Assembly (NCBI RefSeq): GCF_000007345.1
Contig: NC_003552.1
Coordinates: 3,534,001 to 3,598,000 of the forward strand
Source of the DNA: Methanosarcina acetivorans C2A
Lineage (GTDB): Archaea > Halobacteriota > Methanosarcinia > Methanosarcinales > Methanosarcinaceae
Reading direction: 5' to 3'
DNA length: 64,000 nt
Positions 4,709 through 58,448 of this stretch are shown piece by piece. The notes beneath the pieces were generated by a model that was given only the letters and a program-made list of their open reading frames with translations, did not search any database and was not told where the DNA came from. Within the stretch, counting starts at the first letter, position 1; each line of letters starts with the position of its first letter. A program made the translations under genes and the position numbers.

Positions 4709-5704
4709 TTGTTTGTAAGGCATAAGAAAAATCCCATACTTACAGTTGAAGACTGGCCGTATCATGCTAATTCGGTTTTTAACCCTGCAGCTGCCATAGT
4801 TGACGGCAAAATACTATTGCTGGTGCGTGTCGAAGATCACAGAGGCATTTCTCATCTTACAGTAGCCAGGAGTAATAATGGAATCGACGGCTGGGAGATC
4901 GACCCCGAACCGACCTTTGTCCCGGATCCTGTCAATTATCCTGAGGAGATATACGGCATTGAAGACCCACGCATAACCTACATTGATGAGCTGGGGAAGT
5001 GGGTTGTAGCGTATACAGCTTTTTCGGACTCCGGCCCCTTGCCGGCTCTTGCCTTTACGGAGGATTTCCGCAATTTTGAGAGAATAGGCCCCGCCCTGCC
5101 CCCTGAAAATAAAGACGCTGCCCTCTTTCCCGTAAGATTTAACGGCAAATGGGCAATGATACACAGGCCTGTGCCTGCTATTCACGGTATGAAAGCGAAT
5201 ATGTGGATCTCCTTTTCTACAGAAATGGAAGCCTGGGGCGGGCATCAGGTCCTTCTCTATGCCCGGGAAGGGGGATGGTGGGATGCCTATAAGATAGGAT
5301 TATGCCCGCAGCCGATACGTATACCCGACGGCTGGTTAATTATGTATCATGGAGTGCGCCCGACAATGCCAACAATAAGTTATCGGCTTGGGCTTGCTCT
5401 CCTTGACCCTGAAGACCCGAGAAAAGTCCTCCGCAGGTCTGAAGGCTGGGTTTTCGGGCCTCTCGAACTCTACGAACGCAGCGGAGATGTCAACTATGTT
5501 GTTTTCCCCTGCGGATGGGTTGTGGTGAAGGATGAACTTCGTATTTATTACGGAAGTGCGGATACATCTATCTCAATGGCCAGCGCAAAAATGAGCGAGA
5601 TCCTGGAATATGTCCGTGAATGCCCTGAAGAACAGTGTCCTGAAGAGTACTGCAGATTTTTTGAGGGGAACAGGAGGAGGGTTACTGACCTGAAAAGAGG
5701 CTAA
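4709..5704 (+). CDS. GH130-family glycosidase/phosphorylase, copy 2
   Basis: 331 residues, nearly the same protein as copy 1 at 795 (RHKKNPILT, VRVEDHRGISHL, GIEDPRIT, IYYGSA all present) with a slightly longer Arg/Lys-rich tail. The start is TTG 4709 with GAGGAG only two bases upstream, which is close for a ribosome site. The frame is open back to the stop codon of the ATPase at 4654, which is in the same frame. It probably shares a transcript with the ATPase. Divergence between the copies is concentrated in the middle (about residues 160-225), possibly changing substrate preference. Function by family only; substrate unknown. Confidence 0.85.
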   Translation: MFVRHKKNPILTVEDWPYHANSVFNPAAAIVDGKILLLVRVEDHRGISHLTVARSNNGIDGWEIDPEPTFVPDPVNYPEEIYGIEDPRITYIDELGKWVVAYTAFSDSGPLPALAFTEDFRNFERIGPALPPENKDAALFPVRFNGKWAMIHRPVPAIHGMKANMWISFSTEMEAWGGHQVLLYAREGGWWDAYKIGLCPQPIRIPDGWLIMYHGVRPTMPTISYRLGLALLDPEDPRKVLRRSEGWVFGPLELYERSGDVNYVVFPCGWVVVKDELRIYYGSADTSISMASAKMSEILEYVRECPEEQCPEEYCRFFEGNRRRVTDLKRG

Positions 5705-47816: not shown

Positions 47817-49286
47817 TCAGCCTTCGATCTTCTTTTTCACGGCTGCAGCAGTGCTTTCCGGAGAATCGGTTTCCCAGAGTTTCCTGACCTTTGCACTCTT
47901 AAGGGCAGGAATGAGGGAATCGATTTTTGCCTGCACGGCTGCAAGCGCCTCTTCATCGGTACATGGAGGCTCTATACCCATAAACTTCTGGGCTTTGAGG
48001 GTTTCCGTTTCTCTGAAGACGGCACGGTCAACCCCCTTCCGGACTCCGGTCTTCAGGGACTCTATCGCATCCCTCCACTGGGAAGCCCAGGGAGTATCCG
48101 GGATCTTGGTGTGGTGGACATCGGTTCTTTCCACTTTTATGGCTCCAAGGTGGCAGGCTTTCACACAGGCCCCGCAGTACATGCAGAAATCCTCGGCGAA
48201 AGCAATCTTTCGAGGGTCTTCGGGGTCTGTAGGCACGTACCAGAGTTCCGAGGGGCAAACATTAAAACAGCCACGGCAGCCCTGGGGGTCACACTCCTTC
48301 AGGTTAAGTTCGATAAGGCTCAGTTTCCCTTCCATGGGCTTTTGCAGGTCCACAGCTTCGTAGGGGCAGACAGCCTGACAGCGGGCGCACTGTGTGCATT
48401 TCATGTCATCAACTGTTACCTTGCCTTCCACCTTCGGAGCTTCGCAGGGGCGTTCCCCTTTGACCTTTATTGCCTCTTCCGGGCAGAGGTCTTGGCAGAG
48501 CACACAGTAATCGCATTTATCCTCGTCTACAAGGAGCTGCTCAAAAGGCACAGGGTTATCAGGGGTAGGTTCACGTTCAAGCAGGATGAAAGCGTCGCAG
48601 AATCGGGCGCAGATCCCGCAGAAGTTGCATTTTTCGGGGTCAATTTCGATTTCACCCCCCGCTCCTTCCTTAAAGGGAGCTATCTCTTCTTTTTTCGGGA
48701 AGGTGAACTCGACTTCGATTGCGTCCTGCGGGCAGGCTCCTTCACAGAGGGCGCAGGGGAGGCATTTTTCGTTGATATTCACAAACGCATCGTATTTTGG
48801 ATACTGTTCTTCATCAGGAACCTCTCCTACGGATTCGAAGGTTATGGCATGCACAGGGCAGAGGTTTGAACACATCCTGCAGAAGGTGCATTTATCAAGG
48901 TCCATCATGACAGGAGGGGCATCAAGCCCGGTTGCGATCTCATGCATGGGGCCCAGTTCAAGAGCTTTTGTGGGGCAGATATCCACACAGATCCCGCAGC
49001 CGTTGCAGCGCTTGTAATCGTAATCGAGGGTCTTGAGAGACTTCTCGGTTGCCTGCGTATAGAGGAAATGGCTTCCCTGCAGGTCCATGCTGGTCGTAAC
49101 CGTGAGCTTTTCCTGGTTTTCTTCTTCTGGCTCCGCCTCTGCCTGCTCCTCAAACTCTTCGGATTCGAGATCCTCAGTTTCATTTTCTCCTTTTTCGGAC
49201 TCTTCGTTTTCTCCGGCTCCACAGCAGCACCCGCCACATACCTGAGTTTCCTGCTCCGGGAACTCTTCGGGTTCATTCTCGCTCAC
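47817..49286 (-). CDS. Polyferredoxin with eight 4Fe-4S motifs, partner of HdrA
   Basis: 489 residues. GTG start overlapping the hdrA stop (GTGA) with GGAGGTGA four bases upstream, so translation is coupled. A Cys-rich start (CGGCCCG) and an acidic linker precede eight cluster motifs: CNGCGICVDIC, CTFCRMCSNLC, CLPCALCEGAC, CNFCGICARFC, CDYCVLCQDLC, CTQCARCQAVC, a C-x4-C-x2-C-x3-C variant (CDPQGCRGCFNVC) and CMYCGACVKAC. A C-terminal helical part of about 90 residues lacks cysteines. It probably feeds electrons to or from the HdrA-MvhD protein. Confidence 0.92.
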   Translation of the reverse strand: MSENEPEEFPEQETQVCGGCCCGAGENEESEKGENETEDLESEEFEEQAEAEPEEENQEKLTVTTSMDLQGSHFLYTQATEKSLKTLDYDYKRCNGCGICVDICPTKALELGPMHEIATGLDAPPVMMDLDKCTFCRMCSNLCPVHAITFESVGEVPDEEQYPKYDAFVNINEKCLPCALCEGACPQDAIEVEFTFPKKEEIAPFKEGAGGEIEIDPEKCNFCGICARFCDAFILLEREPTPDNPVPFEQLLVDEDKCDYCVLCQDLCPEEAIKVKGERPCEAPKVEGKVTVDDMKCTQCARCQAVCPYEAVDLQKPMEGKLSLIELNLKECDPQGCRGCFNVCPSELWYVPTDPEDPRKIAFAEDFCMYCGACVKACHLGAIKVERTDVHHTKIPDTPWASQWRDAIESLKTGVRKGVDRAVFRETETLKAQKFMGIEPPCTDEEALAAVQAKIDSLIPALKSAKVRKLWETDSPESTAAAVKKKIEG

Positions 49287-51664
49287 TGTGTCACCTCCTC
49301 AACCCCGGGAACAGCACATTCTTGCTTGAACTCGCTTCCTATGGGCCCTATTTCTTCGAGTTCCTTTACAAACTCATTAATCGTATTTGAGAAACGTTCT
49401 CCTTCGGCAGCCGAGATCCAGAGAGTCCGGAGTCTTTTCGGGTCAAGCCCGATTTCCTTAATGACTTCTTTTAAGATGTCCATACGCTTTTTCGCATCAA
49501 AGTTTCCGTGAATATAGTGGCACTCATCCATCCTGCAGCCCGCAACAAGCACGCCGTCCGCTCCGCCTTTGAGGGCTTCAAGCACGAATTCGGGGTTTAC
49601 CCTTGCCGAACACATGGTACGGATTACCCTGATGTTTGTCGGATAACGGATCCTTGACATTCCGGTCAGGTCGGCACAGGCATAACTGCACCAGTTGCAG
49701 AGGAAAGCCACAATAAAGGGGCACTGGGACTTATGAGCAGTTGCCTCCCTGACCTGGGCAAGGATCTGTTCGTTTTCAAAGTTCCGCATCTGAATTGCCC
49801 CAACAGGGCATGCGGCACTGCAGTCCCCGCAGCCGTAACAGGAGACCTCGTCCACAACAGCTTTTTTATTCTCAATGCTGATCTTTCCGAATTTGCAGAC
49901 TTCCACACATGTCCTGCAGCCAATGCACTTATCAGGATCAACATGGGCTCCCATGGGGTCGGCTTCAAGTTCTCCGGTCCCGAGAAGCTGCATAACTTTA
50001 GAGGCACAGGCACTGCCCTGAGCTATGGAGACCTGGATTTCTTTGGGCCCCGAAGCACAGCCTGCAAGGAAAACTCCGCTTACCGGGGCATCTACAGGAC
50101 GCATTTTCGGATGGGCGCTTGCAAAGAAACGGTCCGGGCGACGCGCAAGGTTAAGCATCCTGCCTATTCCCTCTGCAGCCTTGGTCGGCTCGTAGCCTGT
50201 CGAGAGCACAACAAGGTCATGGGCTTCTTCTTCAACGCTGGATTCCAGGGTATTTTCGAAACGGACAACGGGCCTTCCGTCTTCGCCGGAATAGACCTCG
50301 GCAACCTTTCCACGGATGAAGTCAACACCCATTTCCTGAGTCCTTGTGTAGTATTCTTCGTACATCTCCCCCGCAGCCCGTATATCGATATAGTGGATAG
50401 TAACATCAGTATCAGGGTAGCGTTCCTTTACCATCTGGGAATTTTTAAGGGCTGCCATACAGCAGACCCTTGAACAGTATTCGTTGCCTACGGTTTTGTC
50501 CCTTGATCCTACACACTGGATAAATGCAACGCTTTTTGGGGGCTCACCGGTGGAAGGCACAAGGACTCTTCCTCCTGTCGGGCCTGCAGAGTTCAGCATC
50601 CGTTCAAGCTGCATATTCGTTATGACATCGGGATATTTTCCAAACCCGTACTCCTTTTTCCGGGAAGCGTCAAAGAGCTGGTAACCTGTAGAAACGATTA
50701 TGGCTCCGGCTTCGAATTCGATTTCCTCCGGCTTCTGTTCGTAATCCACAGCTTCTGCAGGACATGCCAGCTGGCAGAGCCCGCAACCCACACAGTGGTC
50801 AGGGTCGATTAACACTACCTGAGGAACGGACTGGGGGATTGGCATATAGATAGCCCGGGTCTTTCCGATCCCGTAGTTCATGGGGTTTTCGATTTCAACA
50901 GGGCAGACCCCGGAGCAGAGGTCAACGCAGCCCTTGCATTTGTCCTCAAGTACGAACCTTGGTTTGCGTTTGACCCTAACATGGAATTTTCCGACCGATC
51001 CTGAGATATCGGTAACCTCAGAATATGTATAAAGAGTGATGTTGGGATGGTTCTGAACTTCTGTCATTTTGGGAGCAAGCACACAGATCGAGCAGTCGTT
51101 TGTCGGGAATACTTCATTCATCAGGGCCATTTTGCCTCCGATTGTAGATTCCTTCTCTACCATGGTTACGGGAAAACCGGCTTCTGCAAGGTTTAAGGCG
51201 GCTTCGATTCCTGCAACCCCTCCCCCTATGATAAGAACATTTCGGCTGGCTTTTGAGTTTGTTGCACTCAATTCCCTTAGGAACCGGGCTTTTGCAACCC
51301 CCATCCTTATCAGGTCAAAAGCTTTCTGGGTCGCCATCTGCGGGTCATCCGCATGCACCCAGGAGCACTGCTCTCTTATGTTTACCATCTCCATTAGGTA
51401 AGGATTAAGGCCGGCTTTTTCCATGACGTGCCTGAAGGTCTTTTCGTGCAGCCTTGGGGAACAGGCAGCTACCACAACCCTGTCAAGTTTGTTATCTTTT
51501 ATGTCCTTAATGATGCCTTCCTGTCCGGAATCGGAACATAGAAACTGTACTTCCCGGGCAAGCACCACATCTTCCAGTTCGTTTGCCATTGCCTCAAGGG
51601 CTGAAACGTCAATTACTCCTGCAATGTTCAGTCCGCAATGGCAAATGTAGACTCCGATTCGCAT
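49283..51664 (-). CDS. hdrA2: HdrA-MvhD fusion, electron-bifurcating heterodisulfide reductase subunit A
   Basis: 793 residues from ATG 51664 (MRIGVYICHCG), with GGAG nine bases upstream; an upstream ATG at 51733 is unlikely. Order: N-terminal HdrA domain, FAD fold NVLIIGGGVAGIEAALNLAEAG, HdrA-specific NDCSICVLAPKM, two 4Fe-4S motifs (CKGCVDLCSGVC, CVGCGLCQLAC), FAD C-half, two more 4Fe-4S motifs (CIGCRTCVEVC, CYGCGDCSAAC) and an MvhD domain (CNWCSYACAD, MCSARV, VAGCRMDECHYIHGN). This fused form is described in M. acetivorans as HdrA2, which with HdrB2C2 couples ferredoxin and F420 to CoM-S-S-CoB. hdrB and hdrC are not in this window. Confidence 0.95.
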   Translation of the reverse strand: MRIGVYICHCGLNIAGVIDVSALEAMANELEDVVLAREVQFLCSDSGQEGIIKDIKDNKLDRVVVAACSPRLHEKTFRHVMEKAGLNPYLMEMVNIREQCSWVHADDPQMATQKAFDLIRMGVAKARFLRELSATNSKASRNVLIIGGGVAGIEAALNLAEAGFPVTMVEKESTIGGKMALMNEVFPTNDCSICVLAPKMTEVQNHPNITLYTYSEVTDISGSVGKFHVRVKRKPRFVLEDKCKGCVDLCSGVCPVEIENPMNYGIGKTRAIYMPIPQSVPQVVLIDPDHCVGCGLCQLACPAEAVDYEQKPEEIEFEAGAIIVSTGYQLFDASRKKEYGFGKYPDVITNMQLERMLNSAGPTGGRVLVPSTGEPPKSVAFIQCVGSRDKTVGNEYCSRVCCMAALKNSQMVKERYPDTDVTIHYIDIRAAGEMYEEYYTRTQEMGVDFIRGKVAEVYSGEDGRPVVRFENTLESSVEEEAHDLVVLSTGYEPTKAAEGIGRMLNLARRPDRFFASAHPKMRPVDAPVSGVFLAGCASGPKEIQVSIAQGSACASKVMQLLGTGELEADPMGAHVDPDKCIGCRTCVEVCKFGKISIENKKAVVDEVSCYGCGDCSAACPVGAIQMRNFENEQILAQVREATAHKSQCPFIVAFLCNWCSYACADLTGMSRIRYPTNIRVIRTMCSARVNPEFVLEALKGGADGVLVAGCRMDECHYIHGNFDAKKRMDILKEVIKEIGLDPKRLRTLWISAAEGERFSNTINEFVKELEEIGPIGSEFKQECAVPGVEEVTQ

Positions 51665-51728
51665 GCTTGTTGACTCCTTATATTTACAAATATTCTTCGA
51701 ATTGAGTTTTGATATATCTTTTGATGTG

Positions 51729-51752
51729 ATCATATATATAATATATAAGTTA
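51729..51752 (-). promoter_or_regulatory. Possible TATA region of the hdrA operon
   Basis: A run of alternating T and A (TTATATATTATATATATGAT on the minus strand) lies about 65-85 bases before the hdrA start, plausible for an archaeal promoter with a leader of about 45 bases. Confidence 0.4.
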
Positions 51753-51880
51753 AAATTTTGAAAATTATAATTCTAAAACGCTTTTCTGCACAACATTTAC
51801 TCTCGTGCAGTAAAAGTAAGGTCCTGTATGGTCCGGTTCATATTATTCTTGTAAGAGCCTGGAAAAACTTTTCTTTATTT

Positions 51881-52040
51881 TTCCATTCAGGTTTTCATTC
51901 AGGTTTCCATTCAGGTTTCCATTCAGGTTTCCATTCAGGTTTCCATTCAGGTTTCCATTCAGGTTTCCATCTAGATTTCCATTCAGGTTTCCATCTAGAT
52001 TTTCATTCTGGTTTTCCTTCAGATTTTCCTTCAGGCTTTC
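51881..52040. repeat. 12-bp minisatellite, ~13 copies
   Basis: Unit GGTTTCCATTCA with minor variants (CATCTAGATT, CCTTCAGATT). Because 12 is a multiple of three, frames on both strands stay open across it and read FHSG repeats on plus and NGNL repeats on minus. It sits about 130 bases upstream of the hdrA promoter region. Confidence 0.85.
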
Positions 52041-52076
52041 CAGATACCTGTGAGCTTTGTGTTTTATAAATCTCAA

Positions 52077-52800: not shown

Positions 52801-53082
52801 ATGAGTGAACATGATGAATTAAAAAATAAGATGTATGAATGGACAGAAAAATACGCAAACAAGGCAGGCTACAGGCTTAACCCGGATAAAGAAGCTCTTG
52901 ATTATGTTCTTGACGGGCTTGCTTCAAGGATTGAAAAGTTTGGGAGGCGCTACTGTCCCTGCAGAATAGTAACCGGGGACGAGGATGAGGATAAAAAGAT
53001 AGTTTGTCCCTGCATCTATCATAAGGATGAAATTGAGAAAGATGGAAACTGCCACTGTGAACTTTTCTTCAAGCCCTCCTGA
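52801..53082 (+). CDS. Ferredoxin:thioredoxin reductase catalytic-chain family protein
   Basis: 93 residues with the full signature of the FTR catalytic subunit: RRYCPCR, then IVCPCIYH, then NCHCELF (CPC, CPC, CHC), which hold a 4Fe-4S cluster next to a redox-active disulfide. A strong ribosome site (GGAGGG) precedes ATG 52801. In Methanosarcina such proteins pass electrons from ferredoxin to disulfides. It stands next to, and divergent from, the HdrA-MvhD operon. Confidence 0.93.
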   Translation: MSEHDELKNKMYEWTEKYANKAGYRLNPDKEALDYVLDGLASRIEKFGRRYCPCRIVTGDEDEDKKIVCPCIYHKDEIEKDGNCHCELFFKPS

Positions 53083-56330: not shown

Positions 56331-56795
56331 ATGACAAATGCAATGGAACTCTATCAGATGCTTCCAAAGACTAACTGCAAAAAATGTGGAAAGACCTCCT
56401 GTATGGCGTTTGCAGTTGCCCTTATGGCTCATGAGCTGACGCCTGAGGACTGCCCGCCCCTGAAAGAAGAACCCAAATATAAAGAAAACTACGAAAAGAT
56501 CAGCGGCCTTTTCAAGCCGTCGGAAGGAGCAACCGAAACAGGGCTCATAGTGCATGAAGACCTCTGTTTCGGTTGCGGAAACTGCGTCGTTGCCTGCCCT
56601 CCTAATGTAGCAAACGATCCTTATGGGGTAGGTTCTGGAAATGCCCCTACGAATCCTAACAAGCTGGTCCTGACCGTAGAAGACGGCGTTGTAAAAGCCC
56701 AGAACCTTGGGGAGTGCCGCAGATTCGGGAAGAATAAGATCCTCTGTAACGGCTGTATAGTAACCTGCCCTGTAGAGGCAATCGAGTTTGTGTGA
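56331..56795 (+). CDS. Fe-S protein of a formylmethanofuran-dehydrogenase-like operon
   Basis: 154 residues. An N-terminal 4Fe-4S domain of the corrinoid-protein type (LPKTNCKKCGKTSCMAFA, last Cys in EDCPPL) is followed by two ferredoxin-like sites (CFGCGNCVVACPPN; CRRFGKNKILCNGCIVTCP). Similar proteins accompany the tungsten formylmethanofuran dehydrogenase genes of Methanosarcina. It precedes fwdB by a few bases. It probably moves electrons to or from FwdB. Confidence 0.85.
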   Translation: MTNAMELYQMLPKTNCKKCGKTSCMAFAVALMAHELTPEDCPPLKEEPKYKENYEKISGLFKPSEGATETGLIVHEDLCFGCGNCVVACPPNVANDPYGVGSGNAPTNPNKLVLTVEDGVVKAQNLGECRRFGKNKILCNGCIVTCPVEAIEFV

Positions 56796-56805
56796 GGCTG
56801 AGAGG

Positions 56806-58050
56806 ATGGAGAAAAATTACTACGTATGCACAGGCTGTGGAATGCTCTGCGACGATATCGAGGTCGAGGCTGAAAAGAACATCGTAAACAAAGTATATAC
56901 AGCCTGCAGGGTTGGGGTAGCCCACATGAAAGAAGGCACGGATAATGCAGTTTTCCGTGTTGGCGATAAGCCTGTTGATGAAGCTACTGCTGTAAGCGAG
57001 GCTGTAGCTATCCTGAAGAATGCAAAAAACCCCCTGATTTTCGGGCTTGGGACCTCCAGTAATGAAGCGCAGAAACTTGCAATCGAGCTTGCAAAAAAAA
57101 CCAGTGCAACTCTTGATGATCCTTCTTCATTCCGTCTGGGGAGTTTGGTTGAAGCCCTCCTTCAAAACAGGTTCAAGACCTGTACGCTTGACGATGTGAG
57201 GAATAAAGCCGATGTTACTATTTACTGGGGGACGAACCCCTCGGACTCTCACCCCCGCCACCTTTCGAAACATTCCTATTTCCCCAGAGGCAAGGAAAAA
57301 CAGCGGGGCTGGGAAGAAGAAAGAACTGCAATTGCAATAGATGTCCGGAAGTCCCATACTGCAAAGATCTGCGGAAACTATTTCTTCGAGATCCCTCCAG
57401 GGGGAGATGCCGAGTTCATCGATGCCCTGATTGCAGCCCTTTCCGGAAAGCTTCCGAAAACCTCCTACAACTTCCCCCCAAAAAGAATCCTTGAACTGGC
57501 AAACATCCTTAAGGGGGCAAAGTTCGGAGTGGTCTTTGTGGGGCTTGGTTTGGTTTACTCCCTGGAAAACCTGGAACCTCTTTTCCGGCTCATGGATGCC
57601 CTGAACGAAAAAGCAAATTTCCACCTGATCCCCATGGTGGGATACTCCAACACACGGGGCTTTAATGAAAACCTCTTTGAAGAAACAGGGTACGTAAACA
57701 GTGTAAAGTTTGAAGACGGTGCCGTAAAGCACGGACCCGAATATTCGATCGTTGAATCTCTGAAAGCAAAAACCGTGGATGCAGCCCTTATAATCGGTTA
57801 TGATCCGTTTTCAAGCCTCCCCAGGTCTATTGCAAAGAACCTGCTTGAAATTCCCGTCATCTCGCTAAACCCCTTCGAAACCCTGACTTCCAGAAACGCA
57901 AAAGTCTATATTAATACTGCAGTCGGCGGAGTTGAGTCAGGAGGGACTGCCACACGTATGGACGGGGTAAAGGTAGACTTCAAACCTGTTGTTGAAACAA
58001 AGCGGCTCTCGGATGAAGCTGTTCTCAAAAAGATAATGGAGGCTCTCTGA
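56806..58050 (+). CDS. fwdB: Formylmethanofuran dehydrogenase subunit B paralogue lacking the metal-ligand Cys
   Basis: 414 residues from ATG 56806; GTG 56788 is an unlikely alternative. The N-terminal 4Fe-4S site is intact (Cys8, Cys11, Cys15 in CTGCGMLC, Cys34 in TACRVG). The molybdopterin-enzyme body follows, with IYWGTNPSDSHPRHLSKHS and the C-terminal EIPVISLNPFET. At the active-site loop, where catalytic FwdB reads SVCHGP with Cys118 binding W or Mo and His119 beside it, this protein reads SFRLGS, with Arg110 and Leu111. It may therefore bind the cofactor differently or have another role. Stop overlaps the fwdD start. Confidence 0.88.
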   Translation: MEKNYYVCTGCGMLCDDIEVEAEKNIVNKVYTACRVGVAHMKEGTDNAVFRVGDKPVDEATAVSEAVAILKNAKNPLIFGLGTSSNEAQKLAIELAKKTSATLDDPSSFRLGSLVEALLQNRFKTCTLDDVRNKADVTIYWGTNPSDSHPRHLSKHSYFPRGKEKQRGWEEERTAIAIDVRKSHTAKICGNYFFEIPPGGDAEFIDALIAALSGKLPKTSYNFPPKRILELANILKGAKFGVVFVGLGLVYSLENLEPLFRLMDALNEKANFHLIPMVGYSNTRGFNENLFEETGYVNSVKFEDGAVKHGPEYSIVESLKAKTVDAALIIGYDPFSSLPRSIAKNLLEIPVISLNPFETLTSRNAKVYINTAVGGVESGGTATRMDGVKVDFKPVVETKRLSDEAVLKKIMEAL

Positions 58051-58448
58051 TGGATTTCGGATCTTTTCTTAAATCCCCTGAAATAAAGATCAGGATCATA
58101 ACCTACAGTGATATCTTTCAGGACAAAGCGATGGTTGAAAACCGTTTTGGAGAAGAGTACAGGAACCTTTCTGCCGTAATAAAAATGGACCCTGCAGACC
58201 TCAAGCAGTTGAACGTGAAAAAAGGCGACACCGTAGTCCTGAAAAACTCCTTCGGAACGATTGTGGTCAAAGCTGAGGAGTCCGGATACGAAACCCCTCA
58301 TAGGGGCATTGCGTATATGCCTAACAGCCCCTGGTCCAATATGCTGGTCTCGGACGGAACGGGCGGCACCGGGGTCCCCAAATTCAAAGACATTTCCGTA
58401 ACCGTTACCAACGCAAAAGGAGAAAAAGTAACCGAAATCGAGTTTTAA
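58050..58448 (+). CDS. fwdD: Formylmethanofuran dehydrogenase subunit D (molybdopterin dinucleotide-binding)
   Basis: 132 residues starting at ATG 58050, overlapping the fwdB stop by one base (TGATG). A double-psi beta-barrel with IKMDPADLKQLNVKKGDTVVLKN-type start and the family motif GIAYMPNSPWSN, followed by TGGTGVPKFKDI. In the normal complex it caps the MGD cofactor of FwdB. fwdA, fwdC, fwdF and fwdG are not present next to it. Confidence 0.92.
   Translation: MDFGSFLKSPEIKIRIITYSDIFQDKAMVENRFGEEYRNLSAVIKMDPADLKQLNVKKGDTVVLKNSFGTIVVKAEESGYETPHRGIAYMPNSPWSNMLVSDGTGGTGVPKFKDISVTVTNAKGEKVTEIEF

Follow-up and report, generated by a model that had tools for sequence, protein, structure and literature searches.

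The nearest described systems to the genes treated here are the catalytic subunits FwdB/FmdB of formylmethanofuran dehydrogenase (5t5i, 8rja, 7bkb) and, in Methanosarcina itself, the gene set fwdG2B2D2 ('Fwd2'), which has been described as a tungsten-type formylmethanofuran dehydrogenase with a constitutive fwdB2 transcript at about half the level of fwd1; the accessible part of that account (PMC2838876) mentions neither the loss of an active site nor a link to CODH/ACS. Relatives of the MopB type that have no cofactor are known as well, namely FhcB and Nqo3 (PMC10100899) and an FdhA-like clade (PMC12054007). HdrA2B2C2, whose HdrA2 is MA2868, takes electrons of CODH/ACS via ferredoxin in vitro, and the polyferredoxin of HdrA2 is up on acetate but not required for the transfer from CODH/ACS to Hdr in vitro (PMC5296606). 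On acetate, levels are higher for the hdrA gene that pairs with pfd (MA2867), a polyferredoxin gene.

Results and Discussion

Active site of FwdB2

We analysed a window of 64,000 nucleotides from Methanosarcina acetivorans C2A (genome G000, 5,751,492 bases; window G000:C1:3534001-3598000), in which three intact frames on the forward strand form a cassette: FwdG2 (56331..56795), FwdB2 (56806..58050, start codon ATG at 56806) and FwdD2 (58050..58448). Judged by its G-B-D gene order, the cassette would correspond to fwdG2B2D2 of Methanosarcina (PMC2838876). FwdB2 is a FwdB-like protein of 414 aa that passes the NCBIfam equivalog TIGR03129 with 500 bits against a cut-off of 327.8, and its AlphaFold model (pLDDT 88, low at 154-171) reaches a Foldseek TM of 0.90-0.92 to FwdB. 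As the earlier note had reported, Arg-Leu stands in place of the Cys118-His119 of solved FwdB: codon 110 reads CGT (Arg, 57133-57135) and codon 111 CTG (Leu, 57136-57138), and SSFRLGS aligns without a gap to SVCHGP of 5t5i_B (phmmer against the PDB, E 8e-71), the loop being gapless also against 8rja, 9sfi and 9sw6. No Cys of FwdB2 is placed at the metal position, where the alignment puts the Arg; 9sfi itself has an X at this site, presumably Sec. The second-shell Arg288 has been changed too, with LIPMVGYSN aligned to LIPMRGHYN of 5t5i and Val278 consequently at the Arg288 site, followed by Gly279 and by Tyr280 at the site of His290 (57637..57645, forward strand). The [4Fe-4S] site and the NP-HPRH region are indeed kept, the four N-terminal Cys being residues 8, 11, 15 and 34. 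FwdB2 shares with catalytic FwdB/FmdB the fold, the N-terminal [4Fe-4S] site, most pterin-site motifs and the FwdD partner, whereas it has neither a Cys/Sec metal ligand nor His119 nor Arg288 and belongs to a separate clade.

A working alternative formylmethanofuran dehydrogenase that borrows FwdA and FwdC from other clusters would explain why FwdB2 passes TIGR03129 and why the genes are annotated and named fwd2 and found to be constitutively transcribed (PMC2838876). However, Cys, His119 and Arg288 are all lost together, no A or C partner was recognised alongside and FwdG2 is fused to a foreign domain, so that we consider this explanation highly improbable. TIGR03129 does not tell the FwdB2 clade apart from catalytic FwdB. 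In the lineages examined no FwdA- or FwdC-type gene was recognised in the cassette, of which only FwdG2, FwdB2 and FwdD2 recur, and the three lost residues together with the missing subunits are strong but indirect evidence that the complex would be inactive towards CO2. Going by the sequences, it is very unlikely that the window genes encode a formylmethanofuran dehydrogenase. The name tungsten formylmethanofuran dehydrogenase given to the Methanosarcina genes is probably a misnomer, and relatives scored with this family model would be misnamed in the same way. That no Arg can take the place of the thiolate is a fair chemical argument; alone it is no proof that the pterin is lost, as arsenite oxidase holds its Mo without a protein ligand (PMC10100899).

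Phylogeny and residue losses

FwdB2 relatives were collected in the order (150 genomes), in the phylum (295 genomes) and on named GTDB contigs, which cover Methanosarcina, Methanolobus, Methanococcoides, Methanohalophilus, Methanoperedens and Methanothrix, among others; the M. acetivorans genome contains five FwdB-type genes. In a tree of 129 rows the canonical FwdB/FmdB, with Arg or Lys at 288, form one clade (SH-aLRT 100) and the paralogues lie on the other side, the FwdB2 clade being present in Methanosarcinales and in further families of this phylum. Among 194 sequences compared, Arg288 is absent from every paralogue and the Cys-bearing paralogues possess Gln, Leu, Phe or Met at the His119 site, with a single exception from Methanolobus halotolerans (L202). 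This protein has Cys-His in the loop and Ala at the Arg288 site and is nested within the paralogue clade, and its His119 looks regained. Most Cys-less members showing a His in the His119 column, including the sequences of family f3, have a shortened loop, and because the loop is shortened and the Cys absent the His of the f3 sequences is not a secure match to His119. Near position 293, where canonical FwdB often has Thr, most paralogues carry an Arg (NMRGFN).

A family-wide loss of the metal Cys was considered and rejected, as most members retain it. Taking Cys as ancestral, it has been lost at least eight times (starred branches of the tree) and up to nine times, three of these losses lying within a Methanosarcina-level clade, and its loss accompanies that of the His or Gln at the His290 position (6 vs 0 independent pairs, median p 0.03). 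Sec at the metal site of TGA-bearing relatives was also rejected, since the loop is free of stops in the f3 sequences examined; such relatives have their stops at the N-terminal edge, except L281, whose stop falls close to residue 43 of the match. The latter (G108:C165) is a FwdB2 frame with an in-frame TAA and represents a pseudogene or an assembly error.

A second FwdB/FmdB of the own genome (G000:C1:1473931-1475148; L005, L271:7910-9241) has Gly-Asn for Cys-His and keeps Arg288. Neighbouring fmdA, fmdC and fmdD were not recognisable at this locus, genes for an ABC ATPase and a ModA-like protein lie nearby on the opposite strand, and the FwdB/FmdB gene is probably fmdB3.

Origin of the Arg form

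The Arg itself is not conserved in Methanosarcina: most orthologues retain Cys (SSFC-L-G), and within the genus only the own genome and G141 carry Arg. The orthologue of G141 is 93% identical and encodes the Arg as CGC, and the nearest Cys-bearing orthologues have TGC, so that one transition suffices for the change from Cys to Arg. Two distant genomes, G094 and G171, acquired an Arg at this site independently. A sequencing error or a decaying pseudogene has next to no probability left, and nothing was found in favour of either: the Arg is shared by G141 from another codon and is therefore not a sequencing error, the frames of all three genes are intact, and the pair of Arg genes gives a dN/dS of 0.08, compared with 0.05-0.12 in the Cys-bearing pairs. 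The dN/dS value indicates a working gene, purifying selection on FwdB2 being the same after the loss of the Cys, and the codon and dN/dS comparisons already refute the error or pseudogene explanation.

Eight substitutions map to the stem branch leading to G000 and G141 (T88A, T106P, C110R, D144N, H280Y, M283T, L335F and D355N), several of them in metal-site loops, and we read them as a possible remodelling of the pocket. In the Ser-bearing G147, positions 106, 110, 280, 283 and 335 changed independently, and at two of these the new residue is that of the Arg form, and a single origin of the Arg (G000, G141) and Ser (G147) forms was rejected (AU p 0.0002). Positions 280, 283 and 335 vary also among Cys-bearing Methanosarcina, and a link of their stem changes to the loss of the Cys is suggestive only. 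Should a link to CODH/ACS hold, the natural series from Cys kept through Ser and Arg to a deleted loop would allow one to ask at what point a molybdopterin enzyme turns into a scaffold.

Because the Arg is a late change of one lineage, we based the interpretation on the whole clade, which is marked by the loss of Arg288, by that of His119 in all Cys-bearing members but L202, and by the lack of FwdA and FwdC. The earlier note had deduced from the Arg that the gene set may encode a non-formylmethanofuran enzyme or an electron-transfer or regulatory relative. This is partly supported: an electron-transfer relative is also our best-supported reading and more likely than the CO2-fixing enzyme that the name implies, but the argument has to be drawn from the clade and not from the Arg.

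Cofactor pocket

Canonical-invariant positions were scored across 68 paralogues with the metal Cys and 20 without it, in all of which the [4Fe-4S] Cys of FwdB are kept. Trp142, Arg152, Asp180, Asp202, Asn283, Gly286, Gly381, Arg385 and Asp387 are retained in 99-100% of the Cys-bearing paralogues, and retention in the Cys-less ones falls to 55% for Asp105, 65% for Asp202 and 55% for Gly286. FwdD2, a FwdD-like molybdopterin-dinucleotide-binding subunit of 132 aa, is retained nearly everywhere beside FwdB2, and most canonical-invariant residues around the pterin are retained in FwdB2 of the window, which may for these reasons still hold Mo/W-bisPGD.

This raises the question whether the complex is still a Mo/W enzyme with another reaction, a bisPGD reductase or an oxo- or sulfur-transferring enzyme in the style of Nap or DMSO reductase, for which the His and Arg of formate chemistry would not be needed and the protein ligand would be exchangeable (Cys, Ser or none). 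The nearly complete pocket of the Cys-bearing paralogues and the conserved FwdD2 would suit such an enzyme, as would the nearly invariant new Arg of the NMRGFN motif (FwdB2 position 284) and the replacement of Cys by Ser in separate lineages. In addition, the Cys ligand kept in most orthologues speaks against a pure scaffold, which would not need it. On the other hand, any metal-binding residue at the site has been lost repeatedly with the rest of the operon retained, the pocket residues decay in the older Cys-less lineages and the gene context suggests no substrate, and we regard a different Mo/W reaction as unlikely.

FhcB (6s6y), from the formyltransferase/hydrolase complex of bacteria, is likewise derived from FwdB, has no Mo/W centre and plays a structural role (PMC10100899). 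FhcB is nevertheless distant from FwdB2 (profile E 2.9e-9 to 6s6y_B vs 7e-104 to 5t5i_B; TM 0.70) and sits together with FhcA, FhcC and FhcD, whereas FwdB2 keeps the [4Fe-4S] Cys and FwdD; no fhc genes were seen near the FwdB2 cassette. Similar to FwdB2 is also the 'Molybdop' clade, Cys-less MopB proteins of Methanosarcinales and ANME that are linked to HdrA and for which a structural role has been proposed (PMC12054007). Compared by its description, this clade is FdhA-like and occurs with fdhB, mvhD and hdrBC, while the cassette of the window has FwdG and FwdD and no fdhB; from 47 to 61 kb of the window no fdhB and no hdrBC could be recognised, though hdrA2 is near.

FwdG2 and the gene neighbourhood

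FwdG2 is a hybrid protein. Its residues 4-50 form the N-terminal [4Fe-4S] domain of the large subunit of the corrinoid iron-sulfur protein (CFeSP; CdhE/AcsC type; 2h9a, 2.6e-7) and its residues 71-152 match 5t5i_G (5e-13), a FwdG-type ferredoxin with two [4Fe-4S] clusters. CdhE/AcsC shares only this N-terminal domain with FwdG2, which has no corrinoid-binding part, and all 12 Cys of FwdG2 are invariant across 175 sequences. An extra partial FwdG2 copy with one TAA was found away from the cassette in G073 (G073:C1:35909-36226; L270), and G280 of family f30 has a FwdG2-type CFeSP-FwdG hybrid between cdhD and cdhE without FwdB2 (L251:9234-9689).

In families f9 and f34 the genes are arranged as FwdG2-B2-D2-cdhA-cdhB-cdhC-cooC-cdhD-cdhE. 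In 17 genomes the cassette stands directly upstream of the CODH/ACS operon on the same strand with a gap of 1611-1866 bases between FwdG2 and cdhA, and many other f9 genomes have no cdh neighbour of the cassette; some f9 genomes have UbiD-type and other genes adjoining it. An ornithine carbamoyltransferase gene next to the cassette in f6 and some f9 genomes was taken as incidental. Among 295 genomes of the phylum, cdhA is present in 122 of the 125 with FwdG2, the other three being 73-81% complete, vs 56 of the 170 without it (odds ratio 83, p 3e-34, a statistic that ignores kinship). We found no mention of the cassette beside cdh genes in the openly available literature. In family f2 a set of mtr genes, mtrA and mtrH among them, immediately precedes the cassette. 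In Methanosarcinaceae the order is a FwdF-like polyferredoxin and the divergent HdrA2, FTR (sometimes with thioredoxin), FwdG2, FwdB2 and FwdD2. In the window these neighbours are the FwdF-like polyferredoxin (47817..49286, reverse strand; NF042909 FwdF, 1.8e-71) downstream of hdrA2, HdrA2 with a fused VhuD/MvhD domain (49283..51733, reverse strand), and FTR, the catalytic chain of ferredoxin:thioredoxin reductase (52801..53082, forward strand), which most of the Methanosarcinaceae loci examined have close to the cassette. From gene order and family, the genes at 47817-51733 presumably are MA2867 pfd and MA2868 HdrA2.

The CFeSP-type domain, the shared operon with cdhA-E in two families and the position right behind mtrA..mtrH in a third could also point to a dedicated reductive activator or maturation factor, whose FwdG2 domain would feed electrons to the Co(II) of CFeSP (CdhDE) and MtrA. 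For this function the FwdBD core would be superfluous, no RamA/RACo-type ATPase was seen in the cassette and the mtr linkage was seen in a single family, which makes such an activator quite unlikely.

We favour a CO2-inactive electron module, because the [4Fe-4S] Cys of FwdB2 and the 12 Cys of FwdG2 are invariant while the metal Cys was lost eight to nine times. FwdG2B2D2 would be a Fwd-derived module that neither reduces CO2 nor makes formylmethanofuran and has been recruited for moving electrons of low potential around CODH/ACS and Hdr, a proposal to which we give slightly less than an even chance. It has kept the electron-wiring half, that is FwdG with its two clusters and the cluster of FwdB, and FwdG has gained the CFeSP-type [4Fe-4S] domain. 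The module would carry low-potential electrons between CODH/ACS and the electron partners of the latter. In Methanosarcinaceae the partner would be HdrA2 via the FwdF-like polyferredoxin, possibly with a branch to FTR and thioredoxin, and the FwdBD core would serve as a scaffold whose pterin site is losing constraint, down to the loss of the metal Cys in M. acetivorans. Gene linkage, the hybrid FwdG2 and the conservation of the clusters suggest the role beside CODH/ACS and HdrA2, as do the co-occurrence of FwdG2 with cdhA and the in vitro passage of CODH/ACS electrons to HdrA2B2C2 (PMC5296606). The residue losses, the lack of A and C subunits in the cassette, the conserved clusters, the fusion and the linkage are observed; the direction of electron flow, the formation of a physical complex and the loss of catalysis we infer. 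The linkage of the cassette varies by family between CODH/ACS, mtr, HdrA2/FTR or nothing obvious, which counts against the electron module, as does the finding that CODH/ACS-to-Hdr transfer in vitro works without the polyferredoxin (PMC5296606). Should the link to CODH/ACS hold, the module would be a concrete candidate for the path by which electrons move between CO/acetyl-CoA metabolism and soluble heterodisulfide reductase. That an ancient FwdGBD-derived complex, widespread among methanogens and ANME relatives, is an unrecognised CODH/ACS accessory wired to HdrA2 by the CFeSP-FwdG hybrid, its Mo/W site being dispensable or serving a new reaction, is conceivable, if somewhat doubtful.

Two further features of the window were observed. 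Between hdrA2 and FTR (51880-52042) there is a tandem array with 13.5 copies of the 12-base unit TTTCCATTCAGG, and a similar gene pair (795-1754 and 4709-5704) flanks a P-type ATPase-like gene, by eye apparently a local duplication.
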